From: Butyrivibrio sp.
GTDB taxonomy: Bacteria; Bacillota; Clostridia; Lachnospirales; Lachnospiraceae
NCBI GenBank assembly: GCA_023664865.1
Contig: JAMPEU010000003.1
Coordinates: 124,001 to 188,000 of the forward strand
Direction: 5' to 3'
Length of the DNA stretch: 64,000 nucleotides
Shown here piece by piece: positions 5,180 to 63,527 of this stretch. Made by a program: the position numbers and the translations under genes. A model generated the notes under the pieces. It was not told the origin of the DNA. It made no database searches and saw only the letters and a list, made by a program, of their open reading frames with translations. Numbering within the stretch: the first letter of the stretch is position 1; every line of letters starts with the position of its first letter.

Positions 5180-5312
5180 GCATGAACTCATATGTTTTCA
5201 TGAGTGGCACGCTCTCGCTCCGTGGAAAATCGCAGCGGTACTAAGCTCGAAAAAACCTCGCTAAGTACCGGCGTTTTCCAAGGACCACTCACAAAAACAT
5301 ATGAGTTCATGC
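5180..5312 (-). repeat. Palindromic element A (dispersed palindrome family)
   Basis: A 133-bp imperfect palindrome. The outer arms GCATGAACTCATATG... and its complement pair over about 19 bases with no mismatch, then the family core follows: GGAAAATCGCAGCGGTACTAAG facing CTAAGTACCGGCGTTTTCC. The apical loop is shorter than in other copies. Read on the minus strand it has the side hairpin CACGGAGCGAGAGCGTG (GC stem, GAGA loop). It lies inside the flagellar operon next to copy B, in opposite orientation. Confidence 0.85.
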
Positions 5313-5336
5313 CTATATAGGCTGTGAATATTTCCA

Positions 5337-5490
5337 AGCGACATGGACTCATATATTTCCTCTTGAGTCCCTTGGAAAACGCCGGTACTTAGTGAAAAAG
5401 CCAGCTTTACGGCTTTTGAGCTTAGTACCGCTGCGATTTTCCACGGAGCGAGAGCGTGGCTCAAGTGGAAACATATGAGTCCATGTCGCT
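5337..5490 (+). repeat. Palindromic element B (dispersed palindrome family)
   Basis: A 154-bp palindrome running from AGCGACATGGACTCATAT to ATATGAGTCCATGTCGCT. The core is TTGGAAAACGCCGGTACTTA ... CTTAGTACCGCTGCGATTTT, with the GAGCGAGAGCG side hairpin on the plus strand. It is inverted relative to copy A 25 bp away, so the pair could also fold into one longer structure. Any mRNA spanning ylxF to fliK would carry both. Confidence 0.88.
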
Positions 5491-5535
5491 CCTATACATT
5501 CATGCCGCACCCTCACCCTCACCCTACATTATGAT

Positions 5536-6399
5536 TTACTCCGGATCCATTATCCTCGTCAGCCTCGCCGCAAATTCCGCATCCATCGCCGCCAATATAT
5601 TCCCCCTTGCGCTCGTGCTAAGCTGCATAAGTATCTTCGCCGCAAGTTCGGGATCTCCGGTCATATTTTCAAGTATCTTTGCCGCCGCCGCCGGATCCAT
5701 ATCCGCAAACGGCTGCGCGTAATCCTGCAGTTCCGTGCTTACCTGCGCCTGCTCTACTACCTGCTTATACAGATATTCCGCATATGTCGGATCTATCTCT
5801 TCATAATATTTACGGTATTCTTCCGCTCCCGGTCCGTTCTCCGCATATATTACTTCCTGATAGAACTCTGTCCTGATTCTGTCAAAGTCCACCTGCGCAT
5901 CTTCAAATGTCTGCAGCCTTTCAACTTCCGCCCTCAGTTCTTCTATGGTCTGCGCGTCTACTCCGCTTAACGACTGCGCCCTCTCAAGTTCAAGCTCAAG
6001 CTCCGTGATATAATCTACCGCATCCCTTAGGCTGGTATATCCGCCGTATGATTCCTCGTCGTTAGTCGTAACAACATTTTCCGTTGGCAGCAGCTTATTG
6101 ATTACCGGCACATCCTTGATTACGGGAGCCAGTATGTTAGAGCCGAATCCGCCCACGTCCAGTTTGATAAGCACGCAGAGTATCGCTATCCAGATAACCA
6201 CAATGATAAGCGTTACGAAGAATACCGGCAGGCCGCCCGCGTCTTCGTCAAGTTCCGCCTCCTGCGCCGCGATTTCCTTTGCCCGCTGTTTCGCTTCTTT
6301 CTTCTGCGCCTTCTGATCTTTTTTTAATTTATTGCGTTCTTCCTTAAGTCTTTTTTTCTCTGCATCGGTGTCTACAACACTATTTAACATATCCGCCAT
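5536..6399 (-). CDS. ylxF: Flagellar protein YlxF / MotE-like (MgtE N-domain-like)
   Basis: This 287-aa protein occupies the ylxF position between fliJ and fliK. Order of parts: a highly charged Lys/Glu N-terminal helix (about 13-50), one membrane segment (LPVFFVTLIIVVIWIAILCV, about 57-76), a periplasmic-side coiled coil (about 120-165), and a C-terminal MgtE-N-like helical domain with PAAAAKILENMTGDPELAAK. Related proteins act as chaperone-like partners of the stator or export apparatus; its role here is inferred from position and architecture. ATG at 6399 follows GAAAGGGG; an alternative ATG is three codons later. Confidence 0.75.
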   Translation of the reverse strand: MADMLNSVVDTDAEKKRLKEERNKLKKDQKAQKKEAKQRAKEIAAQEAELDEDAGGLPVFFVTLIIVVIWIAILCVLIKLDVGGFGSNILAPVIKDVPVINKLLPTENVVTTNDEESYGGYTSLRDAVDYITELELELERAQSLSGVDAQTIEELRAEVERLQTFEDAQVDFDRIRTEFYQEVIYAENGPGAEEYRKYYEEIDPTYAEYLYKQVVEQAQVSTELQDYAQPFADMDPAAAAKILENMTGDPELAAKILMQLSTSARGNILAAMDAEFAARLTRIMDPE

Positions 6400-6420
6400 T
6401 GTATGCCGTGCCCCTTTCTA

Positions 6421-6867
6421 TCATGAGTCCTTCTGCCCGTAAGTATAGCTTACCAACTCATCTACTTCCTTGCTCTCCTGTGCGTTAATCTCATGCACAA
6501 ACTCTTCAAACGCTTTTTCCCGCAGCTTTTCCTGCATCTTGCGTTCTTTCATTATCTCCTCTAACTTCACCCTGGCGGCCTCCACAATGTCTTCCGCCTT
6601 CTTTATGTTAAGCTTTTGGAGTTCAATAAACTCATCCATCCTTGCCAGAGCATATTCATTATCACGAAGGCTCTGCACCTTAAGCGTCTCCTGCCGCAGT
6701 TTCCTGCCCTCTTCCAGATAGCCCTTTTTCCTATTATAGAGTACGCTAAGCTTCTCCTCTTCTTCCATGAGCCTGCGCTGCGCCTGACCAAGCTCCATCT
6801 TCGCCTGAGTCTCCATCTGGTTCTTGATATTCAGTATGCTCTGCATTCTGTATACGAACTTCGCCAT
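6421..6867 (-). CDS. fliJ: Flagellar export chaperone FliJ
   Basis: A 148-aa, almost wholly alpha-helical, Lys/Glu/Gln-rich protein typical of FliJ, the stalk-like coiled coil that couples the FliI ATPase ring to the export gate. It begins MAKFVYRMQSILNIKNQMET, matching the FliJ N-terminus, and lies immediately downstream of fliI (21 bp). Length matches the family (about 147 aa in Bacillus). No cysteine or membrane segment is present. Confidence 0.88.
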   Translation of the reverse strand: MAKFVYRMQSILNIKNQMETQAKMELGQAQRRLMEEEEKLSVLYNRKKGYLEEGRKLRQETLKVQSLRDNEYALARMDEFIELQKLNIKKAEDIVEAARVKLEEIMKERKMQEKLREKAFEEFVHEINAQESKEVDELVSYTYGQKDS

Positions 6868-6888
6868 ATATTTAAACTCCCAACCGCC

Positions 6889-8208
6889 TTATGCGAACAA
6901 GCCCTTAAGAAGTTCAAGTTCCTGCTCGTAATCCAGTTTAGCGTCTACTTCCTGCATGAGGTACTCATTTACCGCATCTATTTTTTCTATCGCATAATCT
7001 ATGTTTGGATTGCTCCCGCTCTTATACGCGCCGATATTGATAAGGTCTTCGGCCTCATTATAAGTCGCAAGCACATTCTTAAGCTTGCCTGCCGCCAGCT
7101 TGTGTTCCTTGGGAACTATCTGGCTCATACATCTGGAAATGCTCTGCAGTACGTCTATTGCAGGATAATGGTTCTTATGCGCCAGTTTCCTGTCCAGCAT
7201 TATATGTCCGTCCAGGATGCTTCTCGCCGTATCGGTAATCGGCTCATTAAAATCATCACCATCTACCAGTACCGTGTACAGCCCAGTTATGGAACCCTTA
7301 TCCGAACGCCCTGCACGCTCTAAAAGCTTGGGCATCTCGGAATATACGCTGGGCGGATAGCCCCTCGATACAGGCGGCTCGCCGCTCGCCAAGCCTATCT
7401 CCCTCTGTGCCATTGAGAAACGCGTAAGGGAATCCATCATCAGCAGCACGTCCCTGCCCTGGTCTCTGAAATACTCCGCAATCGCTGTGGCTGTCTGCGC
7501 CGCTTTCTTTCTCTCCATCGCGGGCTTATCGGAAGTAGCGACTACTACGACCGAACGCTTCATGCCCTCCGGACCTAAGTCTCTCTCGATAAACTCCCTG
7601 ACCTCCCTGCCCCGCTCACCTATCAGGGCGATTACATTTATATCAGCTTTAGTATTGCGTGCAAACATTCCCATTAGGGTAGACTTTCCAACGCCTGAAC
7701 CTGCAAAAATGCCAATCCTCTGTCCTTTGCCGACTGTCATAAGCCCGTCTACCGCTTTAACCCCGAGAGGCAGCACCTCGTCTATAATCTCCCTTGACAT
7801 GGCATCCGGCGGATTTGCCTCCATCGGATAATTTACCATCTGCTCATCGTCCATATCCACGTCTTCGCACCTGCCAAGGCCATCGAGGACTTTTCCCAAA
7901 AGCGCGTTACTTACATGTACCGACAACGGCATCTTCATATTCTCAACTACGCAGCCGCTCCCTATCCCTTCGGTTTTTTCATAAGGCATGAGCAGCGTCT
8001 TTCTTTCTTTAAAACCGACAACCTCCGATATGATGGGCGCAAGGGCATTGTCTTTCGGATAAATCTTACACAAATCTCCGAGCCTTGCCTCCGGTCCTGC
8101 AGACTCTATCGTAAGTCCGACGACATTCTCCACGCGTCCCATGCTCTTAAAAAAGGTATCGTCCACAACCGTACCGTATTTTGAAAAATCTATAGCTACA
8201 TTTACCAT
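6889..8208 (-). CDS. fliI: Flagellum-specific export ATPase FliI
   Basis: FliI (439 aa) is the ATPase of the flagellar type III export apparatus, related to the F1 beta subunit. Visible motifs: Walker A AGSGVGKST (about 169-177), Walker B LLMMD (about 255-259), and the ATPase signature PPSVYSEMPKLLERAGR. The N-terminal beta-barrel domain precedes it, and the C-terminal domain ends DAKLDYEQELELLKGLFA. Length equals that of Bacillus FliI. It starts four bases after the fliH stop, so translation is probably coupled. Confidence 0.96.
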   Translation of the reverse strand: MVNVAIDFSKYGTVVDDTFFKSMGRVENVVGLTIESAGPEARLGDLCKIYPKDNALAPIISEVVGFKERKTLLMPYEKTEGIGSGCVVENMKMPLSVHVSNALLGKVLDGLGRCEDVDMDDEQMVNYPMEANPPDAMSREIIDEVLPLGVKAVDGLMTVGKGQRIGIFAGSGVGKSTLMGMFARNTKADINVIALIGERGREVREFIERDLGPEGMKRSVVVVATSDKPAMERKKAAQTATAIAEYFRDQGRDVLLMMDSLTRFSMAQREIGLASGEPPVSRGYPPSVYSEMPKLLERAGRSDKGSITGLYTVLVDGDDFNEPITDTARSILDGHIMLDRKLAHKNHYPAIDVLQSISRCMSQIVPKEHKLAAGKLKNVLATYNEAEDLINIGAYKSGSNPNIDYAIEKIDAVNEYLMQEVDAKLDYEQELELLKGLFA

Positions 8209-8211
8209 AAT

Positions 8212-9093
8212 TTATCCCTCAAAAGACAGCAGTTTAAGTTTCCTTGTAAGCTCGTCAAGCTGCGTACCCACGCCGCAGTCAAAAATTCCGCCGTCTGTCT
8301 CAATCAGACATTCGTTTTTACGCAGGGTAATGTCTTCGACTACCTCTAACACGCCGCGGCCGCCGACCGCACCTTCCGAAAGCAGTTTCTTCTGCATATT
8401 GACGTATGGGTAATCATCCGCGGATACATGCACAATAAAAGTCCTGCTACTTTCCACTTTCCGTAAAGTGGACTCAATTAAGTGTACCAGGATATTTCTT
8501 TCATTTTCCAATTCAGTATGAAAAACATGATTATACACAGCAGTAAGCGTGTCGATGAACTTAGGTTCGAGTTCGTCTATTAAGCTGTTGTACTCTTCTT
8601 CCAACATCTTTCGCTCTTCTTCAAGTTCCCTTCGCATCATGTCAGCCTGCTCTTGGGCTGAGGCAAGGCCATCGCTGTATCCCTGCCTTTTCGCGTCTTC
8701 GAGTACAGACCTTTTCTGAGCTTCTATCTCCGCCATCGCCGACTGCTTCATCTGCTCAATCTCGGCTCTTGCCGCTTCTAACTCGGCAGCTGCCTCGGCG
8801 CGCAGTTCCTCCGGCGTAGGACCGTTATTCACTTCTTCAGACGCCCTTAAAAGCGCCCCCTCTTCACCGTCTCTGTCATATAACAGCGCATCTATCTGTT
8901 CACCGCCGATTCCGCCTGTGAAACCTTCATCTTGTGAATCATCGCCGGAAAGGGCAGCGTTTCTTCTGCGCTCTTCCTCCCTGGCTTCCATCTCTTCACG
9001 CCTTTTTTCCATAATCGCGTTACTGTCAATAACCCACTTATCGTCCTCCTGCACTGCTACCCAGCCGGCTTTATATATATTCGACCTAGACAA
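8212..9093 (-). CDS. fliH: Flagellar export regulator FliH (TTG start)
   Basis: FliH (293 aa) binds FliI and regulates its ATPase. The N-terminus (SNIYKAGWVAVQEDDKWVI) is followed by a long Glu/Ala-rich coiled coil (about 105-180) and a C-terminal V-ATPase-E-like domain ending TQLDELTRKLKLL. The likely start is TTG at 9093, inside the last codons of fliG (8-bp overlap), with GGAGG eleven bases upstream; the next ATG would remove 27 residues including the conserved N-terminus. The overlap suggests translational coupling to fliG. Confidence 0.9.
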   Translation of the reverse strand: MSRSNIYKAGWVAVQEDDKWVIDSNAIMEKRREEMEAREEERRRNAALSGDDSQDEGFTGGIGGEQIDALLYDRDGEEGALLRASEEVNNGPTPEELRAEAAAELEAARAEIEQMKQSAMAEIEAQKRSVLEDAKRQGYSDGLASAQEQADMMRRELEEERKMLEEEYNSLIDELEPKFIDTLTAVYNHVFHTELENERNILVHLIESTLRKVESSRTFIVHVSADDYPYVNMQKKLLSEGAVGGRGVLEVVEDITLRKNECLIETDGGIFDCGVGTQLDELTRKLKLLSFEG

Positions 9094-10102
9094 TTATCTC
9101 GTCACCTCCACCTCTGGAGATAACGATTTCTGCAGAATCTTCCAGCTTTCTGATAATATTTACAATCTTCTGCTGAGCCTCTTCTACATCTTTCATGCGG
9201 ACAGGTCCCATGAACTCCATATCTTCCTTAATCATAACTGCCAGACGTTTCGACAGGTTATTGAAGATAGCGTTCTGTACTTCCTCATTGGAACCTTTAA
9301 GCGCGATTGCAAGGTCACTGTTATCAACATCACGAAGTACACGCTGTATAGCCCTGTCGTCCAGAAGCAGGATGTCTTCAAATACGAACATCTTCTTCCT
9401 GATTTCATCAGCAAGCTCGGGTTCTTCGATTTCCATAGTCTCCATGATATGTTTCTCTGTACCACGGTCTACGGTATTCAAAATTTCTACGATTGCATCT
9501 ACACCGCCAATAATGGTGTAATCCTGATTCGCCAAAGATGCCAGCTTGGATTCCAAAACTTTCTCGACCTCCTTGATAACATCGGGACTCGTTCTGTCCA
9601 TAACCGCAATACGCTTCGCTACGTCTGCCTGCCGGTCAGGAGACAGCGCTGAAATAATCAGCGCTGACTGCGCCGGTGCAAGGTATGACAAAATAAGCGC
9701 AATTGTCTGCGGGTGTTCATCTTGAATAAAGTTAAGCAGCTGTGATGGGTCGGTCTTTCTTACAAACTCAAACGGCTTAACCTGTAATGACGCTGTAAGT
9801 TTACCAATTACATCCTTAGCGCGTTCAGAGCCGAATGATTTCTCCAAAATCTCTGTGGCATAACCGATACCGCCCTCGGCAATATACTGCTGCGCCAGAC
9901 ACACCTGATAAAACTCGCTCATGACTTCTTCTTTCAGCTTCGGCGTAATCGTTCTGGTATTTGCGATTTCCAAAGTAAGCTCTTCTATTTCATCTTCTTT
10001 TAGGTGTTTAAAGATTGTCGCCGACCTCTCCGGTCCGAGCGCAATCAACAATATAGCCGCCTTTTGCACTCCGGTGACTTTCTCATCAGAAACCTTTTGC
10101 AT
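9086..10102 (-). CDS. fliG: Flagellar motor switch protein FliG
   Basis: FliG (338 aa) is the rotor protein that contacts the MotA stator and binds FliF and FliM. The FliM-binding EHPQ motif is at residues 129-132 (DEHPQTIALILSYL). The C-terminal charged torque helix region is present (LSKRLAVMIKEDMEFMGPVR). Length equals Bacillus FliG (338). It lies five bases after fliF. Confidence 0.97.
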   Translation of the reverse strand: MQKVSDEKVTGVQKAAILLIALGPERSATIFKHLKEDEIEELTLEIANTRTITPKLKEEVMSEFYQVCLAQQYIAEGGIGYATEILEKSFGSERAKDVIGKLTASLQVKPFEFVRKTDPSQLLNFIQDEHPQTIALILSYLAPAQSALIISALSPDRQADVAKRIAVMDRTSPDVIKEVEKVLESKLASLANQDYTIIGGVDAIVEILNTVDRGTEKHIMETMEIEEPELADEIRKKMFVFEDILLLDDRAIQRVLRDVDNSDLAIALKGSNEEVQNAIFNNLSKRLAVMIKEDMEFMGPVRMKDVEEAQQKIVNIIRKLEDSAEIVISRGGGDEIIV

Positions 10103-10107
10103 TACTT

Positions 10108-11718: not shown

Positions 11719-11756
11719 GACTGTTATTTCTCCTTACGTATTCCTTATACGATTGA

Positions 11757-12083
11757 TTATATCTGCATCTGCATAAGTTCTTTATAAGCATCCAATAACT
11801 TATCCCTTATAGCAACCGTGTACTGCAGCGCCGTGTATGCCTTCTGCAGCGCGATTGTTAAGTCATGGGTATTTTCAGTCTCTCCCAGCGCCCACTTAAT
11901 CTCCTCATTCTCTGCATCTGAAAGGAAACTGTTGGTAGTATTTATATTATCAATAGCAGTTCCCAGAAAATCATTAAAACTCGTATCAACATATGTATCC
12001 GGTTTGGTAATAGATGAATTTTTCGCAGCCTCTTTTACCGCTCCTGACGACAGATTACGAATTGCCGTAATATCAAAATTCAT
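11757..12083 (-). CDS. fliE: Flagellar hook-basal body complex protein FliE
   Basis: FliE (108 aa) joins the MS ring to the rod. The C-terminal half carries the family signature: HDLTIALQKAYTALQYTVAI followed by RDKLLDAYKELMQMQI. The N-terminal part is polar and flexible. Length is typical. It sits between flgC and fliF as in Bacillus. Confidence 0.93.
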   Translation of the reverse strand: MNFDITAIRNLSSGAVKEAAKNSSITKPDTYVDTSFNDFLGTAIDNINTTNSFLSDAENEEIKWALGETENTHDLTIALQKAYTALQYTVAIRDKLLDAYKELMQMQI

Positions 12084-12139
12084 TTCACTCTCTCCTCTGA
12101 CTATATATACTATCTAATAATCTTCTTAATGCCCGGTGC

Positions 12140-12586: not shown

Positions 12587-12621
12587 ATCTCATTCTCCTT
12601 TATTTATTTCATAAATCTCCC

Positions 12622-13264: not shown

Positions 13265-13291
13265 ATCTTAGACCATTCCTTTGTCTTTATT

Positions 13292-42615: not shown

Positions 42616-42773
42616 CAGTCGTCCTCCCTTATTTTATTGTCCATATAAGGGATTCAGATTCCATGACGTGAAAAAAGATTTTCCAGAAATTAAGACTCCC
42701 AGATATGTTTAGTTAATCATAACATAGTTGATGCAATTTTGTAAAGTAGAATTTTAAAATATTTAAAATCTAA

Positions 42774-42960
42774 TAACAGTTCAGCCCTCAGGCGGCATGG
42801 ACGCATATGTTTCTCCGCCGAGGTCCTTAAAAAACGCCGGTAGTTGGTGAAAAAGACGCAAAGCGGCTTTTGAACTTAGTACCGCTGCGTTTTTTACGGA
42901 ATGAGAGTGTGCCTCAAGGAGAAACATATGCGTCCATACCGCCTGAGGGCTGAACTGTTA
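42774..42960 (+). repeat. Palindromic element C (dispersed palindrome family)
   Basis: A 187-bp palindrome. The outer 22 bases TAACAGTTCAGCCCTCAGGC-GG pair exactly with the right end. The arms continue with GCATATGTTTCTCC, then the core AACGCCGGTAGTTGGTGAAA and CTTAGTACCGCTGCG. The side hairpin on the plus strand is TACGGAATGAGAGTGTG (covarying AT/GT stem, GAGA loop). It lies between pilB's terminator and the Rpn gene. Confidence 0.92.
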
Positions 42961-42967
42961 AAAAACG

Positions 42968-45993: not shown

Positions 45994-46028
45994 TCTATAT
46001 TTTCCTTTCGTGTACTCATATTTTAAGT

Positions 46029-46231
46029 AATTGCAAAACTCAATATTTCACAACATGAGTTGCTCAATATATACAAAACATAAGTAAGGCGCTCTGCCGC
46101 CGTCGGTACTTAGGCACTGTTTTTTAGTGCCTTATGTACCGCTACTGGCGGCAATGCAGCGAAAGCGTGCCTTACGTTGTTTTGTATATATTGCGCAACG
46201 TGATATGTTAAATAACAATGGTTTTGCAATT
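46029..46231 (+). repeat. Palindromic element H (diverged family member)
   Basis: About 203 bp. The ends AATTGCAAAAC and GTTTTGCAATT pair, and the middle arms CAATATATACAAAACA pair with TGTTTTGTATATATTG. The core CGGTACTTAGGCACT ... AGTGCCTTATGTACCG keeps the GGTAC stem, and GCAGCGAAAGCGTGCC is the side hairpin (GAAA loop). Arms are AT-rich unlike most copies. It fills the 239-bp gap between yifB and dprA. Confidence 0.8.
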
Positions 46232-46232
46232 A

Positions 46233-47786
46233 TCATCCCATCTTCCCAAGCTCCGCCACCCTATAGCAAAGTGCCTCGGTCAGATGCCTCTCCCTGATAT
46301 CCGTATCTCCCGCCAAATCGGCAATGGTTCTTGCCACTTTTAAGACGCGGTGATAGCTCCTTGCCGTCAGATTGAGCTTATGGAAAAAGCTTTCCATCAG
46401 CCGTTCTTCGGACAATCCTAATTTACAGTGCCTGCGAATGTCTTCTACGCCCATATCGGCGTTGAAACGAAGCCTTGTTCCCTCGAAACGTTTCTGCTGA
46501 ATCTTTCTTGCCTCAAGGATGTGCTCGCGTATCTGTGCGCTGCTTTCCTTCCCCTTGCCGAAGGACAGCTCGGTCATTTTAAGGGCGGGCGCCTCTACGC
46601 AGATATCGATTCTGTCAAGTATAGGTCCTGATATCCGCTCCAGATATCTGTGTATCTCATAAGGAGTGCAGCTGCATCTGTGCATATCGGGGTAGTATCC
46701 GCATGGACACGGATTCATGGCTCCAACCAGCATAAAATCCGCCGGATATATGTAACTTCCGCTGTTTCTGGCTATCTGTATATGCCGATCCTCTAACGGC
46801 TGTCTTAAAATATCAATGGTTTCGCGCTTAAATTCCGGGAGTTCATCAAGAAAAAGCACGCCCCTATGGGCAAGCGTTATCATGCCCGGCAGCGGCATTT
46901 TGCCTCCGCCCGCTAACGCCTGTCTGGTTATGGTATGGTGCGGGGCTATGAACGGACGCCTCGTAATAAGCACGTCCTCATGGGAAAGCAGACCGGATAT
47001 GCTGTAAACTGCAGATACTTCCATGCTCTCTTCTAATGACATGGGCGGCAGAATGGTTGGAATCCTTTTGGCAATCATGGTTTTGCCGGAACCGGGCGGT
47101 CCGACGATAAGAAGGTGGTGGAAACCCGCCGCCGCTATCTGCGCCGCTCTTTTTACTCCTTCTTGTCCGTTTACCTCTGAAAAATCCAGCTCCGCATCAT
47201 TCAGGTTTCTTGCAAGCAGCGACTCTACATCTATCTTAGCAGGCAAAATCAGCTCATGCCGCATCTCCTCGTCCACACGCAGATAGGAAAGCACTTCTTT
47301 GATATCTGTGACTCCTATTACCTCAATGTCCTGCACGACCGCGCCCTCCGGGGCGTTTTCTCTGGGGAGGATACAGCGTTTCAAGCCCTGTCTTTTCGCC
47401 TCGGCGACTATGGGCAGCACTCCTTTTACCGGCTTGACTTCTCCGTTTAACCCCAGTTCGCCGATAACAAGCGTATTTTCCGCGCTATTTTGCGGAAGGT
47501 ATTCCAACGCGGTCAGAATACCGACAGCCACAGGCAAGTCAAACAATGCGCCCCCTTTATGTATATCCGCCGGAGACAGATTTACATTGATACTCATAGG
47601 CGGCAGCGGCATCCCTACATTCTTTAGGGCGACTTTGACGCGCTCCCTTGCCTCTCTGACCTCGCTGCCAAGCAGCCCCACCATTTGAAAACATGGCAGT
47701 CCTTTTGACGCATCCACCTCAACCTGAATCAGATAACTCCCGATTCCGTGAATTGCGCCCGATGTAATTGAACTAAACAAATACAT
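46233..47786 (-). CDS. yifB: YifB/ComM family Mg-chelatase-like AAA+ helicase
   Basis: A roughly 517-aa AAA+ protein. The N-terminal ChlI-like domain is followed by Walker A VGPPGSGKTMIAKRIP, Walker B VLFLDELPEF, and a C-terminal Mg_chelatase domain with a four-cysteine insertion (CPCGYYPDMHRCSC). ComM, the studied relative, promotes branch migration of donor DNA in natural transformation. The start is uncertain: ATG 47786 follows GGAGG by only two to three bases, while a TTG six bases later (MFSSITSGAIHGIG-like) has ideal spacing and matches the family N-terminus. Confidence 0.92.
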   Translation of the reverse strand: MYLFSSITSGAIHGIGSYLIQVEVDASKGLPCFQMVGLLGSEVREARERVKVALKNVGMPLPPMSINVNLSPADIHKGGALFDLPVAVGILTALEYLPQNSAENTLVIGELGLNGEVKPVKGVLPIVAEAKRQGLKRCILPRENAPEGAVVQDIEVIGVTDIKEVLSYLRVDEEMRHELILPAKIDVESLLARNLNDAELDFSEVNGQEGVKRAAQIAAAGFHHLLIVGPPGSGKTMIAKRIPTILPPMSLEESMEVSAVYSISGLLSHEDVLITRRPFIAPHHTITRQALAGGGKMPLPGMITLAHRGVLFLDELPEFKRETIDILRQPLEDRHIQIARNSGSYIYPADFMLVGAMNPCPCGYYPDMHRCSCTPYEIHRYLERISGPILDRIDICVEAPALKMTELSFGKGKESSAQIREHILEARKIQQKRFEGTRLRFNADMGVEDIRRHCKLGLSEERLMESFFHKLNLTARSYHRVLKVARTIADLAGDTDIRERHLTEALCYRVAELGKMG

Positions 47787-47960
47787 TTCCTCCTTTTTTA
47801 TATTTAGTTTGTACAAAACTTAGTACACCATTGAATTGACCGGCGATACGCCGCGATTCATACTATAGAATAATTCTTGATATGAACTATATATATTTAT
47901 AAATTCTTTAAACTATATCAAATTATACTTAAATTAACACTCTTAAATGAATATTCTGTA

Positions 47961-48113
47961 GGCGGCATGGATACATATGTTTCCTTTTGAGGCTCTTGGA
48001 AAACGCCGGTACTTAGTGAAAAAGACGCAAAGCGGCTTTTGAACTTAGTACCGCTGCGATTTTCCACGAAGCGAAAGCGTGCCTCAAATGGAAACATATG
48101 TATCCATGCCGTC
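47961..48113 (+). repeat. Palindromic element D (dispersed palindrome family)
   Basis: A 153-bp palindrome: GGCGGCATGGATACATATG ... CATATGTATCCATGCCGTCC. Core: GGAAAACGCCGGTACTTAGT ... ACTTAGTACCGCTGCGATTT. The apical loop GACGCAAAGCGG is the same as in C. Side hairpin CACGAAGCGAAAGCGTG, plus strand. A further ATATTCTG/CAGAATAT pair outside it reaches into the last codons of pilT. It lies between pilT and yifB. Confidence 0.9.
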
Positions 48114-48127
48114 CCAACAACCTCTTT

Positions 48128-49183
48128 TCAGAATATCTTACTCTGCATTCCGTCAGGATCAACCGCAAACTGAATCGCCATTTCCCTGTCGATTTTTCCT
48201 TCAAAGTATAACTGCGTAATGCTCTCGTCCATCGTAATCATTCCCATCTTACGGTTGGTCTGCATAACGGACACAAGCTGGTGCGATTTGCCCTCACGAA
48301 TCAGGTTCCTTACCGCATGGTTGGCGTGCATGACCTCGAATGCCGCCACACGCCCTCTTCCATCCATCGTAGGTATGAGCTGCTGTGAAATAACCGCCTC
48401 TAAAACATTCGCGAACTGTACGCGGATCTGCTGCTGCTGGTGCGGCGGGAAAACATCAATAACACGGTCAACCGTGCTTGCAGCACCGATGGTATGCAGC
48501 GTGGATAAAACAAGATGTCCTGTTTCAGCCGCGGTAATTGCCACGCTGATAGTCTCAAAATCACGCATCTCTCCTACCAGAATAACGTCAGGATCCTCAC
48601 GCAGTGCGGCACGCAGCGCGTTGGCGTAACTTTGCGAGTCCAGTCCGATTTCCCTCTGGTTTACCATTGACATTTTATGCTGGTGCAGATATTCGATAGG
48701 ATCTTCAAGCGTAATTACATGCGCATCCCTGTTATTATTTATTTTATCTATAATCGCCGCAAGCGTAGTGGATTTACCACTTCCGGTAGGCCCTGTAACA
48801 AGAATCAGCCCTCTTTTCCGCTCGTATAGATTGATAACCGATTCCGGAACGCCCAGCACTTCCGGAGCCGGCACCTGTGTGCTTACAAGACGCAGCGCCA
48901 TAGCGCAGGTTCCTCTCTGCTTATAGGCATTTACACGGTAACGTCCAAGTTCGGGGATGGAAAACGACATATCGTATTCTCCGCGTTCCTCAAAACGTTC
49001 CCGCTGAACCTCTGTCATAACTTCTAAAACTATCTCCAGCGTATCCGCCGGAAGCATTTTTGGATAATCCATTGTAACAAGGTTGCCGTTGACACGCATT
49101 TTAGGCGGCACGCCTACTGTTATATGTACGTCGGACGCTCCGGCGTCATGTGCAGTCCTCATAATCTCATTTATCGTCGGCAT
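48128..49183 (-). CDS. pilT: Type IV pilus retraction ATPase PilT
   Basis: A 351-aa PilT. Walker A GPTGSGKST at about 131-139, Asp-box/Walker B VILVGEMRDFETI, and the C-terminal PilT-specific motif AVRNLIREGKSHQLVSVMQT. It powers pilus retraction for twitching and DNA uptake. It lies after an HD-GYP gene (35 bp) and is the third gene of the sigK-HD-GYP-pilT set. Confidence 0.95.
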   Translation of the reverse strand: MPTINEIMRTAHDAGASDVHITVGVPPKMRVNGNLVTMDYPKMLPADTLEIVLEVMTEVQRERFEERGEYDMSFSIPELGRYRVNAYKQRGTCAMALRLVSTQVPAPEVLGVPESVINLYERKRGLILVTGPTGSGKSTTLAAIIDKINNNRDAHVITLEDPIEYLHQHKMSMVNQREIGLDSQSYANALRAALREDPDVILVGEMRDFETISVAITAAETGHLVLSTLHTIGAASTVDRVIDVFPPHQQQQIRVQFANVLEAVISQQLIPTMDGRGRVAAFEVMHANHAVRNLIREGKSHQLVSVMQTNRKMGMITMDESITQLYFEGKIDREMAIQFAVDPDGMQSKIF

Positions 49184-51195: not shown

Positions 51196-51374
51196 GTTCA
51201 AGCTCACAGGCGGCATAGGCACATATGCTTCCCCTTGAGACACGCTCTCGCTCCGTGAAAAATCGCAGCGGTACTAAGTTCAAAAGCTAAAAGCAGCTTT
51301 TTCACTAAGTACCGGCGTTTTTCAAGGGTCTCTGCACGAAAGCATATGTGCCTATGCCGCCTGTGAGCTTGAAC
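51196..51374 (-). repeat. Palindromic element E (dispersed palindrome family)
   Basis: A 179-bp palindrome from GTTCAAGCTCACAGGCGGC to its complement. Middle arms contain GCACATATGCTT/AAGCATATGTGC. Core: AATCGCAGCGGTACTAAGTT ... ACTAAGTACCGGCGTTTTTC; apical AAAGC/GCTTT. Side hairpin (minus strand) CACGGAGCGAGAGCGTG. It ends 3 bases before the hemW stop and separates hemW from the sigK promoter. Confidence 0.92.
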
Positions 51375-52609: not shown

Positions 52610-52611
52610 AA

Positions 52612-55745: not shown

Positions 55746-55775
55746 AGTATAACATATTTATGACCAGAAAAGCAA
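55746..55775 (-). promoter_or_regulatory. Promoter for Rpn gene 3
   Basis: TTGCTT (55770-55775), 18-bp spacer, TATACT (55746-55751), minus strand. The leader would be about 140 nt. The other bases of 55600-56022 hold only this promoter and the hairpin below. Confidence 0.55.
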
Positions 55776-55805
55776 TACCGGATTTGAATTCGTAGAAAGT
55801 GAAAC

Positions 55806-55834
55806 GAGCAGTTACCATTATAGATAACTGCCCG
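55806..55834 (-). terminator. Possible terminator of the GNAT gene
   Basis: The minus strand reads GGGCAGTTA, 9-base loop, TAACTGCTC, with GTTTCACTTT after it. It lies 190 bases after the GNAT stop. The T run is interrupted, so termination strength is uncertain. Confidence 0.45.
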
Positions 55835-56022
55835 TCAATGCTTTTATTCCTGATATGTATAATTTTGCTGCAAAACGTTTTTGTTTTCTAATGTCATATC
55901 CATATTAACCGTTCTCCTTACTTCTTTCATTTATATCTACAAATAGTGTTTCCTTATTGCACAATCCTATTATACCACAATATTAAATTTTTTCATTATG
56001 ATACCTATATATAAACTGGAAT

Positions 56023-56661: not shown

Positions 56662-56837
56662 TTTCCGTTTACCTCCTCAAATGCCGATTTATCTGTCCTA
56701 CCACAACTTTCCATCTATTGTCCCCAGTCTAACATATCAAACTACCTACATCAAGTTTTTTCTTAACGCACTCGCCAAAATCCAAAACGCCAATACCAAT
56801 ATGCTCTCCCCAGAAATCTCGTACCAGTTCAGCCAAA

Positions 56838-56988
56838 GCGTCAGGGGCACATATGCTCACTGAAAAGGTCCTTGAAAGACGTCGGTACTTAGTGAAAAAG
56901 CTGCTTTTTAGCTTTTGAACTTAGTACCGCTACGCTCTTTCACGGAGCGAAAGCGCGCCTTTTCAGTGAGCATATGTGCCCCTGACGC
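56838..56988 (+). repeat. Palindromic element F (dispersed palindrome family)
   Basis: A 151-bp palindrome. The arms GCGTCAGGGGCACATATG and CTCACTGAAAAGG pair without mismatch over 31 bases. Core: GACGTCGGTACTTAGTGAAA ... GAACTTAGTACCGCTACGCT; apical AAAGCT/AGCTTT. Side hairpin CACGGAGCGAAAGCGCG, plus strand. Flanks GTTC and GAAC match the GTTCAGCC ends of copies C and G. It lies just after the spoIIP stop. Confidence 0.92.
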
Positions 56989-57016
56989 CCCCCGAACAGC
57001 ACGAGTTCCCTCACCC

Positions 57017-58378: not shown

Positions 58379-58441
58379 ATATCATTTATATGCAGGATTA
58401 CGGTCCAGACATGCAGAAATGATTTAATGATACCGATAAGA

Positions 58442-59314
58442 TTAAGCTTTGGAAAGGTCCAGGGCTTTATTCAGCGCATCGCAGAGAATATGGGCGATTT
58501 GCTGTACCTGAAAATCTACGTCTTTACTTGTCACATACATATTGTTAAGCTCTGATAAGGCGCTTGGGTATTCGCCTATAGCGTCTCCCACGATTGTCGC
58601 GGCGTCTACTACGGTAGGAACTCCTATCGCCATGACCGGCACTTGAAGGCTCTCTTTGGTCAGCGCGTTTCTGTGGTTTCCAACGCCTGAACCCGGATGT
58701 ATGCCGGTATCAGTTATCTGTATGGTACGGTTTAAGCGTTTGGTTGACCTTGCGGCAAGCGCGTCTATAACGATAACCTGGTCGGGATGAGTCTGTTCAA
58801 TAACACCTTTTATTATTTCCGCCGATTCCATTCCGGTCTTCGCCATAACGCCCGGCACCAGACTGCTTACCATGTGCATTTTAGAGCAGTTGTACGCCAA
58901 TTTGCCATATTCCATTACGATATGTCTGTTGATAAAAAGATTATCCACTACATCCGGTCCCAATGAGTCTGCGGTTACGTCCCTGTTGCCTAAGCCTACC
59001 ACGAGAATCGACTTTTCTTTATCCGGCTCAGACAGCAGATTCCTTATCTCCCTTGCCAGAATATCGGAGATTTCCTGATGATAATCGTCTTCCGGTTCAA
59101 TCATGGCGGGAGCTTCCAGCGTCACATAGTTTCCCATAGGTTTGCCCATCGCCTTAGCGCCGTTCTTCGTTTCAATGATAACTTTAGTGATATGCACGTC
59201 ACTGTCCTTATCATAGTCTTCTTCTATTTTTACTCCGCGAATTTCATCTTCTTTTCCGTCAATACTTTCCTTAGCCTCTAACGCTAAGTCTGTTCTGACC
59301 TGAAACCAACCCAT
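58442..59314 (-). CDS. gpr: Germination protease GPR
   Basis: A 290-aa spore protease (peptidase family A25) that degrades small acid-soluble proteins at germination. Signatures: FQVRTDLALEAKESI at the N-terminus (short pro-region), VGLGNRDVTADSLGPDVVDN, and VIDALAARSTKRLNRTIQIT, plus GSGVGNHRNALTKESL. Its length is shorter than Bacillus GPR (about 370 aa) but usual for clostridia. It is divergent from rpsT, as in Bacillus. Confidence 0.95.
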   Translation of the reverse strand: MGWFQVRTDLALEAKESIDGKEDEIRGVKIEEDYDKDSDVHITKVIIETKNGAKAMGKPMGNYVTLEAPAMIEPEDDYHQEISDILAREIRNLLSEPDKEKSILVVGLGNRDVTADSLGPDVVDNLFINRHIVMEYGKLAYNCSKMHMVSSLVPGVMAKTGMESAEIIKGVIEQTHPDQVIVIDALAARSTKRLNRTIQITDTGIHPGSGVGNHRNALTKESLQVPVMAIGVPTVVDAATIVGDAIGEYPSALSELNNMYVTSKDVDFQVQQIAHILCDALNKALDLSKA

Positions 59315-59394
59315 ACCCTCATCCTCGTTTCTTCTTTCTGTGTTCTTAATTTATCATATGCAGTTAGCAAAGATTATGCAAATGTACGATATGG

Positions 59395-59580
59395 GTAACA
59401 GTTCAGCCATGCAGAAATGATTGTACAACTTGACTGTGGGAGCTTGCTCACTAAAGGCAAGTTGCACAATCATTTCTATAGGGCGGACGCCCGACATGAA
59501 ATAAGTTGCCAACCATAGAGTTATCTGTTTGTGAGAATATATATTTTGGCAACTTATGAATGACATGGCTGAACTGTTAC
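59395..59580. repeat. Branched palindromic element I (three-way-junction form)
   Basis: Outer arms GTAACAGTTCAGCCATG and CATGGCTGAACTGTTAC pair perfectly (17 bp). Inside are two separate hairpins: AGAAATGATTGT...ACAATCATTTCT (59412-59478) and ATAAGTTGCCA...TGGCAACTTAT (59500-59557). The outer GTTCAGCC ends are the same as in copies C and G, but the core is different. It lies between gpr and the rpsT promoter. Confidence 0.85.
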
Positions 59581-59621
59581 CTACATGGCTTTAGTTTTCG
59601 CAGAAAATTTAAAAATATGTA

Positions 59622-59650
59622 TTGACAGAAATTGTGACGTATTTTACAAT
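59622..59650 (+). promoter_or_regulatory. Sigma-A promoter of rpsT
   Basis: TTGACA (59622-59627), 17-bp spacer, TACAAT (59645-59650), plus strand. The transcript would start near 59657 with a leader of about 112 nt. Confidence 0.8.
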
Positions 59651-59664
59651 AATATCTGTGTTTC

Positions 59665-59693
59665 CATTAAAACGTCCGTGTCCGGATTTAATG
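59665..59693 (+). promoter_or_regulatory. Hairpin in the rpsT 5' leader
   Basis: CATTAAA-ACG-TCCG-TGTC-CGGA-TTTAATG folds as a stem of 7 plus 4 bp with a three-base bulge. A second weak stem GTAACT/AGTTAC lies at about 59718-59739. Ribosomal protein S20 autoregulates its mRNA in E. coli; this leader could do the same (inference). Confidence 0.4.
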
Positions 59694-59768
59694 AGACACT
59701 TTCCTTAAAAAGTAACTGTTTAATGCTTTCATAGTTACAAAAAAGATTATAATTAGGAGGTGTGCATC

Positions 59769-60032
59769 TTGGCTAATATCAAGTCTGCAAAGAAGAGGAT
59801 TTTAGTAAACAGAACAAAGGCTGAAAGAAATAAATCTATCAAATCCGGCGTTAAGACTTCTGTTAAAAAGGTAAATGCTGCTATTGCCGCTAACGACAAG
59901 GAGGCTGCAGCACAGGCATTGCTCGCTGCCACAGCTACCATTGATAAAGCCGCTTCTAAAGGCGTGTTCCATAAGAATACAGCTTCAAGAAAAGTATCAC
60001 GGCTGGCACAGGCAGTTAATAAGATGGCTTAA
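59769..60032 (+). CDS. rpsT: Ribosomal protein S20
   Basis: S20 (87 aa) binds 16S rRNA in the small subunit. The product ANIKSAKKRILVNRTKAERN and the Lys-rich, Ala-rich helices are diagnostic. The start is TTG at 59769, because AGGAGG lies eight bases upstream and the family begins MANIKSAKKR; a GTG three codons earlier overlaps the ribosome site. A non-ATG start is also known for E. coli rpsT (UUG) and lowers expression. It is followed by a terminator-like hairpin. Confidence 0.97.
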   Translation: MANIKSAKKRILVNRTKAERNKSIKSGVKTSVKKVNAAIAANDKEAAAQALLAATATIDKAASKGVFHKNTASRKVSRLAQAVNKMA

Positions 60033-60080
60033 GGCTGTAAATTTATCTTATTAATTATTATAAATTAAGAGAACTCATTA

Positions 60081-60113
60081 AAACAACTCATATTGTCCAG
60101 TGAGTTGTTTTTC
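60081..60113 (+). terminator. Intrinsic terminator between rpsT and the purF-like gene
   Basis: ACAACTCA (60083-60090), ten-base loop, TGAGTTGT (60101-60108), then a T run. Only 25 bases separate the end of the hairpin from the next ATG, with no room for a full promoter, so it may act as a partial terminator or attenuator. Confidence 0.75.
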
Positions 60114-60137
60114 GTTAAGGCAGAATGGAGGAATACA

Positions 60138-61544
60138 ATGGGTGGTTTTTTTGGCGTAGCTTCAAAGGAAGACTGTACATTTGATTTATTTTTTGGCACT
60201 GATTATCATTCCCATCTTGGGACAAGACGCGCCGGAATGGTGGTGTATGATAAGGAAAAGGGCTTTGACAGGGCTATACATAATATAGAAAATTCACCCT
60301 TTAGAACCAAATTCGATAAAGACGTAAACACTATGCACGGGCATATGGGAATAGGCTGTATATCCGACTATGAGCCGCAGCCGCTGATTATCCGTTCACA
60401 CCACGGCACATATGCCATTACGACAGTCGGCAGGATAAATAACAAAGACGAAATTGAAAAGATGCTCTTTAAGAGCGGGCATGCCCATTTCATGGAACTG
60501 AGCGGGGGCGAAATCAACGCCACGGAACTTGTCGCCGCCATAATCAACCAAAAAGACAATTTAATAGAGGGCCTGCAGTATGCGCAGGAGTTAATCGAAG
60601 GCTCCATGACTATACTGCTGATGACGCCCAAAGGCATATACGCCGCGAGGGACCGTTTAGGGCGCACCCCTGTGACAATCGGCAAGAAAAATAATGCCTG
60701 CTGCATTTCTTTTGAAAGCTTTGCTTACCTGAATCTCGGCTATAACGAGCATAGGGAGCTTGGTCCTGGCGAAATAGCGATAGTTACGCCGGAAGGCGCA
60801 AGAACGCTTATTAAAGCCGGCAATGAGATGAAAATATGCACGTTTCTGTGGATTTATTACGGCTATCCTTCCTCTTCTTACGAAGGCATCAGTGTGGAAA
60901 AAATGCGCTACAACTGCGGTTCCATGCTTGCCAAGCGCGACGATGCCAAGCCTGATATAGTGGCGGGAGTTCCAGACTCAGGAACCGCCCATGCAATCGG
61001 TTATGCCAACGAATCCGGCATTCCGTTTTCGCGGCCTTTTGTCAAATATACTCCCACTTGGCCGCGTTCATTCATGCCGACCATACAGAGCAAGCGCAAC
61101 CTTATTGCTAAAATGAAGCTTATTCCTGTGCATGACCTTATTAAAGACAGAAAACTTCTGCTGATTGACGATTCTATCGTACGCGGCACGCAGCTTCGTG
61201 AGACCACGGAATTTTTATATCAGAGCGGGGCAAAAGAGGTGCATATCCGTCCTGCATGTCCGCCGCTTTTATTCGGCTGTAAGTACCTGAATTTCTCACG
61301 CTCCACATCGGAAATGGAGCTGATTACGCGTCAGGTGATAAAAGATATAGAAGCAGATAATAAATATCCGAATCTGTCGGCTTATGCAGATCCGGATTCC
61401 ACGGAATATCATGTTATGCTGGAAAAAATAAGAGAGAAACTTAATTTCACTTCTCTGCGTTACCACCGTTTAGACGACATGATTGCCTCCGTAGGCATCG
61501 ACAAATCCAAACTGTGTACATATTGCTGGGACGGCCGCGAATAG
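60138..61544 (+). CDS. Amidophosphoribosyltransferase-like protein without N-terminal Cys
   Basis: A 468-aa protein with the plan of PurF: N-terminal class II glutamine amidotransferase domain and C-terminal PRTase. ATG 60138 follows GGAGG. The mature enzyme normally starts with Cys1 (MCGI); here the start is MGGFFGVASKEDC, so the nucleophile is replaced by Gly and glutaminase activity is unlikely. The PRPP loop LLLIDDSIVRGTQLRET (about 345-361) is intact. Other parts: VAGVPDSGTAHAIGYANESG and CTYCWDGRE at the end. It could use ammonia or have another role; a normal purF may exist elsewhere. Confidence 0.85.
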   Translation: MGGFFGVASKEDCTFDLFFGTDYHSHLGTRRAGMVVYDKEKGFDRAIHNIENSPFRTKFDKDVNTMHGHMGIGCISDYEPQPLIIRSHHGTYAITTVGRINNKDEIEKMLFKSGHAHFMELSGGEINATELVAAIINQKDNLIEGLQYAQELIEGSMTILLMTPKGIYAARDRLGRTPVTIGKKNNACCISFESFAYLNLGYNEHRELGPGEIAIVTPEGARTLIKAGNEMKICTFLWIYYGYPSSSYEGISVEKMRYNCGSMLAKRDDAKPDIVAGVPDSGTAHAIGYANESGIPFSRPFVKYTPTWPRSFMPTIQSKRNLIAKMKLIPVHDLIKDRKLLLIDDSIVRGTQLRETTEFLYQSGAKEVHIRPACPPLLFGCKYLNFSRSTSEMELITRQVIKDIEADNKYPNLSAYADPDSTEYHVMLEKIREKLNFTSLRYHRLDDMIASVGIDKSKLCTYCWDGRE

Positions 61545-61558
61545 CCGTCCTTTTTATT
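61529..61558 (+). terminator. Intrinsic terminator of the purF-like gene
   Basis: GGACGGC (61529-61535), loop containing the TAG stop, GCCGTCC (61544-61550), then TTTTTATT. The stem uses the last codons of the gene. The sufB-like gene converges from the other side 23 bp away. Confidence 0.85.
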
Positions 61559-61567
61559 CCTTAGATG

Positions 61568-62491
61568 CTATTGTTTGAGGAAACCGTTGATAATCTGCTC
61601 TTCCGCCTCCGCTTCCGTAAGCCCGAGCGTCATAAGCTTGATAATCTGTTCCCCTGCAATCTTGCCGATTGCCGCTTCATGTATAAGCGCGGCGTCTATG
61701 TCATTTGCCTCAAGCTGCGGAACCGCCAGTATCTTTGCCTTATCCATAATAATCGCGTCGCACTCGGTATGGCCGCTGCATGGCTTGTTTCCTATGATGC
61801 GGGAGTCAAACTTCTGGTATGACGTATCTTTTGCCACGGAACGCGAAACAACGTCAGCGCCCGCGCCCGCGCCGTTAAGCTCCACTTCATAACTGCTAAA
61901 CGCCTGCTGCTCCCCATGCGTCATAAGCCGCTCATGCACCACAAGGCGCGCTCCTTCCCCGACCTTCGCTATCGTCTTTCTATCAGTCGAGTCCACGCCC
62001 TTAATCTGCACCATTTCCATTTCCATGAAGCTGCCGTCTTCCATATAGACTTCCGTGACCGGATTTAAAATCCGCTTTCCCGCGCCGTCGCCTGAACCAT
62101 AATGTTTTTCGACATACTTTACCTTGGAATTTTTCCCCAGATAAAATCTGTGTATGCCATCATGCTGTGAATCCTGCCCGCCGCAGTTGTCTATGCCGCA
62201 GCCCGCTACGATTACCACGTCTGCATCCGCGCCTATATAAAAATCATTATACACTGTCTCCTTAATGCCGCTCTGGCTTAAAACGACAGGAATATGGACG
62301 CTCTCGTTCTTGGTCCCTTCTTTAATCCGAATGTCGATGCCGCTTTTATCCTGCTTGGAGGCGATATCGATATTTGCCGTGGTGTTCCTGCCCTCAAGCT
62401 GTCCGTTCGCGCGGATATTGTAAGCGCCTTCAGGTATTTTATGCAAATCCGCCACTTCTTCTAAGAGGCGTTTCTGTATTGTGTCAATCAT
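61568..62491 (-). CDS. SufB/SufD family Fe-S scaffold protein (SmsB-like)
   Basis: A 307-aa member of the SufB/SufD beta-helix family. The C-terminal signature is SSYEVELNGAGAGADVVSRS, SRIIGNKPCSGHTECDAIIM, then LEANDIDAALIHEAAIGKIA. It is shorter than SufB (about 465 aa), as in the minimal SmsCB system proposed to be ancestral. ATG 62491 overlaps the sufC stop by 8 bp with GGAGGG upstream. A Cys and a His/Glu pair (CSGHTE; LIHEAA) are available for cluster binding. Confidence 0.88.
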   Translation of the reverse strand: MIDTIQKRLLEEVADLHKIPEGAYNIRANGQLEGRNTTANIDIASKQDKSGIDIRIKEGTKNESVHIPVVLSQSGIKETVYNDFYIGADADVVIVAGCGIDNCGGQDSQHDGIHRFYLGKNSKVKYVEKHYGSGDGAGKRILNPVTEVYMEDGSFMEMEMVQIKGVDSTDRKTIAKVGEGARLVVHERLMTHGEQQAFSSYEVELNGAGAGADVVSRSVAKDTSYQKFDSRIIGNKPCSGHTECDAIIMDKAKILAVPQLEANDIDAALIHEAAIGKIAGEQIIKLMTLGLTEAEAEEQIINGFLKQ

Positions 62492-63248
62492 ATGCTTTTT
62501 TCCCTCCGTTTCCTTCATTTCCCGTACATGGATTTATCGCGGAGGGCGTTCCCAGAAGTTTGGGCAAAATCGCGTCCTTGTCCCCTTTATCGGCAATCCT
62601 GCCGTCCGCAATCACTACGATTTCGTCCGCTATATTCAAGATGCGTTCCTGATGCGAAATAATAAGGATAGAGCCGTTCCCGTTCTTTTTCTGCATCCTC
62701 TCAAAAACATGTATAAGATTCTGAAAGCTCCACAAATCAATCCCCGCCTCCGGCTCGTCGAATACGGAGAGCCTGCTGCTACGCGCCAAAAGCGTCGCAA
62801 TCTCAATGCGCTTAAGTTCTCCGCCTGAAAGGCTGGCGTTCACTTCGCGGTTGATATAATCCCTCGCGCAGAGTCCGACCTCGGAAAGATATTCGCAGGC
62901 GTCGGACGCGGACAGCTTTCTGCCCGACGCAATCCTAAGCAAATCAAGCACCTCAATGCCTTTGAACCTCACGGGCTGCTGAAAGGCAAAGCCTATCCCC
63001 ATGCCCGCGCGCTCCGTGATGCCCTTATCCGTAATGTCTACGCCGTCAAAATAAATCTGCCCCGAAGTCGGTTTCTCAATTCCCGCAATCAGCTTGGCAA
63101 GCGTGGACTTACCACTGCCGTTAGGTCCCGTAATCACCACGAACTTACGCTCGTCAATCGTTAAGCTGATATCGCGCACTATTTCCTTATGGCTGTTTTC
63201 TTTATCTTCATCTGACACTTCAAAAGATATATTCTTAAGCTCCAGCAT
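62484..63248 (-). CDS. sufC: SufC-like ABC ATPase (Fe-S cluster assembly)
   Basis: A 254-aa ABC ATPase. Walker A ITGPNGSGKSTLAKLI (about 39-54), ABC signature NASLSGGELKRIEIATLL, Walker B LSVFDEPEAGIDLWS. The E-A-G-I-D after the Walker B Asp is typical of SufC. It provides ATP hydrolysis for the SufB/D scaffold. No SufS or SufU gene is visible in this window. AGAGGTG precedes the ATG. Confidence 0.92.
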   Translation of the reverse strand: MLELKNISFEVSDEDKENSHKEIVRDISLTIDERKFVVITGPNGSGKSTLAKLIAGIEKPTSGQIYFDGVDITDKGITERAGMGIGFAFQQPVRFKGIEVLDLLRIASGRKLSASDACEYLSEVGLCARDYINREVNASLSGGELKRIEIATLLARSSRLSVFDEPEAGIDLWSFQNLIHVFERMQKKNGNGSILIISHQERILNIADEIVVIADGRIADKGDKDAILPKLLGTPSAINPCTGNEGNGGKKAYD

Positions 63249-63287
63249 GTTGCACCTCTATATCTATAGTATTTTCTTTGCTTATAT

Positions 63288-63317
63288 ATCATATCTCTTT
63301 TTGAGTGTGTGTGTAAA
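63288..63317 (-). promoter_or_regulatory. Promoter for sufC-sufB
   Basis: TTTACA (63312-63317), 18-bp spacer, TATGAT (63288-63293), minus strand. It starts just after palindrome G. Confidence 0.5.
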
Positions 63318-63351
63318 GAAGTTTGTGCAAAGTTTTTATAATATTATGGTG

Positions 63352-63527
63352 GTTCAGCCAGCGGCGGTATAGGCATATATACTTCCCCTTGAGGCACACT
63401 TTCGTTCCGTGGAAAATCGCAGCGGTACTAAGTTCAAAAGCTACAAAACAGCTTTTTCACTAAGTACCGGCGTTTTCCAAGGACCTCTGCGGGGAAGTAT
63501 ATATGCCTATACCGCCGCTGGCTGAAC
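63352..63527 (-). repeat. Palindromic element G (dispersed palindrome family)
   Basis: A 176-bp palindrome. Left end GTTCAGCCAGCGGCGGTATA and its complement at the right end pair without mismatch for 37 bases (through GGCATATATACTTCCCC). Core: AATCGCAGCGGTACTAAGTT ... CACTAAGTACCGGCGTTTTC. Side hairpin (minus strand) CACGGAACGAAAGTGTG with an AC/GT stem in place of GC/GC. It lies between the membrane-protein gene and sufC. Confidence 0.93.

Follow-up and report, generated by a model that had tools for sequence, protein, structure and literature searches.

REP/RAYT (REPIN) systems are characterized by abundant palindromes and by inverted pairs. Other short dispersed repeats described in bacteria include miniature inverted-repeat transposable elements (MITEs) such as QMITE2 of Coxiella, Chunjie and Correia (PMC10969869), BOX and RUP of Streptococcus pneumoniae (PMC3049150), and the stem-loop repeats YPAL, Efa-1 and bcr1 (PMC2267715). 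In this report, we describe a palindromic element of ~190 bp from a window of 64,000 nucleotides of Butyrivibrio sp. (assembly GCA_023664865.1, contig JAMPEU010000003.1, positions 124,001 to 188,000; "the window" denotes this whole stretch), which is part of a draft genome of 3.82 Mb in 180 contigs (G000). A preliminary description of the window had listed eight large palindromes as one dispersed family and recognized no known REP, BIME or MITE family in them. Our data point to a new family of MITEs in which the core is constrained and the arms drift but are re-copied one from the other, a reading to which we assign a probability of about 0.68.

Bacterial MITEs (PMC10969869) resemble this element in being shorter than 500 bp, in their terminal inverted repeats and stem-loop fold, in the target direct repeats of younger copies, in their intergenic position and in their many copies and truncated derivatives; the element differs in its cross-genus core set in species-specific arms, its very long near-perfect arms and its in-place core inversions, and, unlike many MITEs, it has no insertion sequence (IS) relative found here. 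BOX and RUP are alike in dispersal and proposed movement in trans, and BOX also in a modularity whose content varies between strains; BOX is nevertheless set apart (PMC3049150), being assembled from boxA, boxB and boxC units, of which boxB varies in number, whereas the element is a single palindrome with drifting arms. Similarly, YPAL, Efa-1 and bcr1 are repeats of ~160-170 bp with a predicted stem-loop, and arm turnover around a conserved core is not part of their description in the portion of PMC2267715 at hand. Compared with REP/RAYT (REPIN) systems, the element is far longer, has target duplications and is accompanied by no Y1 transposase match in this genome. A likeness of another kind is to inverted repeats homogenized by template switching, for which PMC8604942 and PMC8794818 describe arm homogenization, paired substitutions and inverted spacers or loops as results of a polymerase switching template between the arms; those repeats were studied in yeast coding genes and RNA genes, whereas here we deal with a dispersed bacterial element family. 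The literature searched, which excludes most subscription journals, gave no description of this family. The earlier impression that no known family was involved stands as to a name, but terminal inverted repeats and 8-bp target duplications mark the element as a MITE in this genome, and what sets it apart from described MITEs is the constrained core within drifting, self-matching arms.

Anatomy, copy number and ends

No coding sequence was seen in the element. Read in core orientation, it runs from a terminal repeat (GTAACAGTTCAGCC or GTTACTATTCACAG) through a long outer arm and a short paired segment to the stem, which is formed in the core by CGGTACTTAG / CTTAGTACCG and closed by a variable apical loop, with two main types among the copies. 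The 3' side of the core carries a bulged mini-hairpin, GGAGCGAGAGCGTG, whose loop is of GNRA type in 128 of the 130 copies that could be parsed (23 of 153 were unparsable).

The covariance model was built from 34 copies, some of them window copies, and the independent test therefore comes from searching relatives and the remainder of the genome. All 150 candidates scored, a capped set from 1441 first-look places, matched the model, so that the genome holds at least 150 copies; 153 distinct copies were fetched and read, and the 16 copies on the 214-kb contig that holds the window extrapolate to roughly 285 per genome. Copies are thus abundant elsewhere in the genome and, as given below, in the genus, which disposes of the concern that the palindromes might prove absent or random outside the window. 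Their non-coding position, noted in the window, was confirmed in two genomes, where none of 81 entries (80 distinct copies, one entered twice) lies inside an open reading frame of at least 90 amino acids under a simple greedy rule. Orientation relative to neighbouring genes is mixed, with 42 antisense and 22 sense among 64 tandem cases in which orthologs of both species are not independent and one copy was entered twice, and at least five inverted pairs of close neighbours occur in the genome. Three contigs end in or within a few bases of a copy (G000:C22:1-131, G000:C37:3771-3861 and G000:C11:113947-114090), and the family may therefore break the draft assembly.

The ends shared by several palindromes, GTTCAGCC, belong to a terminal inverted repeat that begins GTnAC (GTAAC or GTTAC). 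The end motifs lie outside the arms, directly beyond the model on both sides, and are far more frequent there than in shuffles: GTTCAGC occurs in 47 of 304 flanks, where 0.6 would be expected. A longer rule for the ends is satisfied by 36 of the 153 flanks on the left and 28 of the 151 on the right, compared with 1.5% of random 80-mers, and the reversed-pattern control gave no match in the genome. In 28 of the 153 copies, both ends could be placed by rule. Six of these copies are bordered, beyond the ends, by a direct repeat of 8 bp with no more than one mismatch (two of the six are exact), where mismatched pairings would give 0.11; among the same 28 copies, repeats of 6 and 7 bp were found in none and of 9 bp in one. 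At one site (L213), the target is present once in the genome of a sister species (G020) and twice in this genome, and at another (L169) a 188-bp insertion has a precise junction with a duplication no longer than one base. In addition, a 71-bp core-less derivative with arms and terminal repeats (L434:1501-1571, that is, G000:C115:1909-1979) is flanked by a perfect 8-bp duplication, TATCAAAT, and one element that shares these ends but not the interior has a target duplication matching at 7 of 8 positions. Because the structural features that were tested are present, we class the element as a MITE in this genome.

A partner that could move it was sought in several ways. A pattern search of the genome with both end types, allowing at most one mismatch, gave no autonomous element sharing the ends, which the draft assembly may lack. 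Around copies in other genomes, 20 stretches were inspected, of which 16 contain two copies; the intervening genes, judged by their first residues without a family search, resemble ordinary cellular genes. A plasmid search with the element of a relative and a phage search with one window copy (copy E, below) gave no match. Among 20 IS66 loci examined from the same bacterial family, one (L416) combines GTAAGCG ends with a duplication of 8 bp, CTTTTAAC. Duplications of the element are also 8 bp long, and its ends read GTAAC or GTTAC; one class of these ends begins GTAA and the other GTTA, the sequence beyond differs from the IS66 ends examined, and at most the first four bases agree.

Core conservation and arm change between species

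Under strict filters, the first model found matches in 33 of 36 other genomes of the genus and in none of 24 genomes of other families. A core-only model, built from 23 sequences, matched 38 of the 40 genomes in the genus, counting this genome. Of 146 genomes of the order, searched under the same filters, 10 matched, namely this genome, one more of the genus and eight from the same family that represent five other genera; there was no match in five listed same-family genomes. Two genomes of the genus (G007 and G012), one of them estimated to be 100% complete, have no copy with either model. In the eight loci from five other genera, one per genome, the core and its side hairpin are recognizable and the arms are unrelated to those of the window; within the genus as well, arms are unrelated between species. 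Across 23 sequences from 20 genomes, 18 of 26 core pairs show both-sided change and 96.6% of cells are paired, against 29-48% in slid controls, the structure having been predicted from the same alignment. Since its sequence and structure are conserved across the genus and in other genera, the core must be constrained in some way, and a strand-specific constraint is likely. The site of copy E is also occupied in a more distant species with flanks ~74% identical; the element there has almost the same core but arms that are unrelated, and the two may go back either to a single old insertion whose arms were later replaced or to separate insertion events.

The preliminary description had also proposed that the arms vary freely and still pair. 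Both-sided variation was indeed found at 31 of 55 predicted pairs among 34 copies of this genome; however, within the genome the outer arms share a consensus, ~GGCGGCATGGACnCATATGyTTCC, and wholly different arms were observed between species. Comparison of orthologous loci, recommended in the same description, yielded sites both shared and not shared with the sister species. The 39 shared sites recovered comprise 24 that could be aligned as pairs (22 with the same orientation, 2 inverted), one (L039) with an element in both genomes that was not paired in the alignment, and 14 at which the sister genome has a much shorter stretch. Of these 14, one (L185:490) holds an element cut short by the flank search, four hold arm remnants, two look clean (L169 and L213), L209 holds a fragment and six were not sorted. 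Four sister sites with nothing but an arm remnant (wH, wD, L155:6259 and L038:1217) look like products of deletion within palindromes. Two element-less sites at which the sister genome keeps one arm had raised the idea that the target flank was copied in inverted form to give the arms; this idea was rejected, as the family consensus is present in the arm at 63352 and deletion has left remnants at other sites.

At the 22 sites in the same orientation, 66 of 593 positions differ in one arm and 70 in the other (~11%), and the flanks differ by ~10% (mean identity 90.3%). Both sides have changed in 53 of the 593 arm pairs, 49 of them from one Watson-Crick pair to another, where 7.8 would be expected if the sides were independent and where a slid control (partner shifted by 1-4 columns) gave 10-20; one-sided changes number 30. 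Five sites have unchanged core pairs, and there 8 of 135 arm pairs have still changed on both sides. The core changes too: at two of the 24 paired sites (L166/L114 and L179/L116) it is inverted in place with the arms still collinear, and at 10 of the 24 its length class differs by at least 10 nt between the species, owing to another apical type or to an extra hairpin. On account of these length differences, copies seem to exchange core segments, and ectopic recombination between copies is the most likely source of changes in the apical loop and extra hairpins. Some copies carry such an extra hairpin at one of two fixed core points, combined with different arms; it reads TAACAATAAGAATG..GTTTGTTTA, or GACCACTGCAAGTGGTC and variants, and falls into two sets (L252, L255-L257, L260 and L261; L244-L246, L248-L251, L253, L254, L258 and L259).

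Explanations for the paired arms

We propose a model whereby copies would have been moved in trans by a DDE-type transposase, as established transposon biology suggests, and whereby a replicating polymerase would switch template within the palindrome, as suggested by the footprint at orthologous sites, where both paired arm changes and spacer inversion are found. A mutation in one arm would then be either erased or copied to the other, and the spacer would occasionally come out inverted. Arm complementarity would be kept mainly by this mutational process and not by selection on arm sequence, and the arms would drift in pairs at about the background rate until they were unrelated between species. 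If erasure and copying have similar chances, pairs should change at about the single-site neutral rate, as is seen; compensatory selection should be slower, and paired change at the background rate would for that reason speak against it. The arm-copying step, inferred from a comparison of two species, is well supported. Of the two possibilities offered in the preliminary description, a hairpin maintained by selection and the rewriting of one arm from the other by a copying process, the latter is favoured for the arms by the flank-rate paired changes and the cores inverted in place, while the former is kept in play by some strand-specific constraint, seen in the core and weakly in the arms.

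Several observations weigh against this model. With respect to transposition, both ends were recognized in no more than 28 of the 153 copies, an 8-bp repeat at up to one mismatch is missing from 22 of those 28, simple A+T-rich sequence makes up two of the six repeats (L227 and L166), and the insertion at L169 has atypical ends and no 8-bp duplication. Among 45 loci of other genomes, some fetched twice, 24 have a GT..AC inverted end and none of these 24 has a duplication of 7 or 8, so that transposition is shown for this genome only. The two transposase families searched in the genome, Y1 (PF01797) and IS66 (PF03050), gave no match there, although the Y1 positive control matched 5 of 14 genomes and IS66 matched 40 of 100 same-family genomes; by eye, without a family search, no transposase was recognized between paired copies or beside five single end motifs. 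As far as these two families go, the eventuality raised earlier, that the repeats belong to a known transposase, was not borne out. With respect to arm copying, flank identity is a rough neutral yardstick, taken from BLAST-aligned parts with coding sequence included; one-sided arm states are G-T in 20 cases and A-C in 6 (p 0.009), an excess that counts against the model because plain template switching does not predict it; adjacent both-sided changes number 9 against 5.1 expected (p 0.04), a weak clustering in a test for multi-base single events; and copies also seem to exchange sequence, which alone can change both arms together.

The G-T excess is more at home with a functional structured RNA, or a strand-specific single-stranded DNA structure, in which selection would keep both arm and core pairing through compensatory mutations. 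This is a possible but rather improbable account of the whole element, and for the core it is compatible with the model that we prefer. Besides the one-sided ortholog states, it draws on the GNRA loop of the side hairpin, on a core that covaries across species and on the predominance of G-T over A-C in core orientation (167 versus 48 in the outer arms and 126 versus 26 in the inner), which persists when two largely wobble positions (68 and 66 cells) are set aside (99 versus 48 and 60 versus 26). It fits poorly, however, with arms that diverge about as fast as the flanks, with paired changes arising at about the per-site rate of the flanks and few intermediates where selection should slow them, with the lack of a sense bias towards neighbouring genes, and with whole-core inversions tolerated at two sites. 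Nor does the window contain an Rfam family: there were no matches at gathering score in the window and none at E up to 1 in 42700-64000. Searches of ten related loci returned three Rfam matches, all to microRNA families and all below gathering score, which we took as chance hits to long hairpins. Ectopic gene conversion among copies alone, with another copy overwriting both arms together, would account for the differences in core length class at 10 of 24 shared sites, where outer arms can stay locus-specific, and for the element at 56838 being identical in both species; we consider it unlikely as the sole process, because arms have changed on both sides at sites with unchanged core pairs, including one of a rare apical type (L245), and a donor tract would there need to skip the core.

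The hairpins, their intergenic placement, the inverted neighbouring pairs and the one insertion without target duplication would suit an element of REP/RAYT or IS200/IS605 type, whose Y1 (HUH) transposase recognizes the hairpin as single-stranded DNA. The missing Y1_Tnp match in this genome and the presence of 8-bp target duplications, which are not expected from Y1 chemistry, make this highly improbable. A more far-reaching reading takes the folded, strand-specific core as the recognized and constrained part, with ends and arms replaceable: arms would drift neutrally through self-copying, cores would flip and trade modules with those of other copies, the same core would sit in different arms in six genera, and the strong arm covariation would be made by mutation rather than selection. 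We put this forward tentatively and think it doubtful as a whole.

Paired base changes are the usual proof of functional RNA structure. If the arms of this family are self-copied, the paired changes seen here do not necessarily point to a useful folded RNA, and dispersed copies that can be compared site by site between species would provide a natural test bed for template switching that imitates selection and a way to calibrate covariation methods. The cross-genus core without a named family is a separate question from that of the arms.

Copies in the window and neighbouring observations

The eight palindromes first seen in the window are real by two measures, since a long hairpin is present at all eight positions and the covariance model matches all eight, with 141-184 bits for seven copies and 76 bits for a variant at 46055-46203. 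Two copies folded alone gave z-scores of -15.3 and -13.4, and none of 200 shuffles was equally stable. One of the eight, at 46029, belongs to a separate subfamily and has arms of its own, and the palindromes at 5180 and 5337 are distinct elements that lie side by side and face opposite ways. Copy A (5157..5335, minus strand; cmsearch 5174-5318, 141.6 bits) has the 145-nt apical type and the terminal motif CTTACTATTCAG on its left and CTGTGAATATTTCC on its right; copy B (5335..5492, plus strand; 168.9 bits) adjoins it, and its right-hand terminal motif was not recognized. Copy C (42773..42961, plus strand; cmsearch 42789-42945, 158.5 bits) has both terminal repeats, ATAACAGTTCAGCC / GGCTGAACTGTTAA, and its flanks agree at 6 of 8 positions, a possible old target duplication. 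Copy D, the separate subfamily with other arms, TTGCTCAATATATACAAAACA, lies at 46027..46233 on the plus strand and was located by cmsearch (46055-46203, 76 bits) and by its fold.

Copy E (47951..48136, plus strand; cmsearch 47959-48115, 184.3 bits, and fold) lies between genes with Mg_chelatase/ChlI and T2SSE domains, and its site is occupied in the sister species too, with an apical loop of another kind. Copy F (51196..51374, minus strand; cmsearch 51207-51363, 162.7 bits) has perfect 35-bp outer arms and is not present in the sister species. The palindrome of copy G (56835..56991, plus strand; 162.7 bits) is identical in the sister species, with differing flanks, and copy H (63352..63527, minus strand; cmsearch 63361-63518, 163.7 bits) has perfect 37-bp outer arms and only an arm remnant at the corresponding site of the sister species. 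Another type of interior is likewise found between copies of the end motif, for example in a related element at 59395..59580 on the plus strand, found by the end-motif search, which has the same GTAACAGTTCAGCC terminal repeats and a different interior without the conserved core. Pairs of ends like those of this element, ~172 bp apart, occur elsewhere in the genome.

Two further observations concern other sequences. A second palindrome family has a shared centre, CGGGG..GCCT.AAAAGC.GGTAAGTC.CCCC, between variable arms (L156, at G000:C114 near 213419-213627, and L133:1035-1120), with CTGTCACGAGTTCA-type ends in G000. Finally, the JAMPHJ records (L081, L087, L088 and others; G016) are titled Muribaculaceae bacterium; by kinship they belong to the genus of the window, and the titles look wrong.

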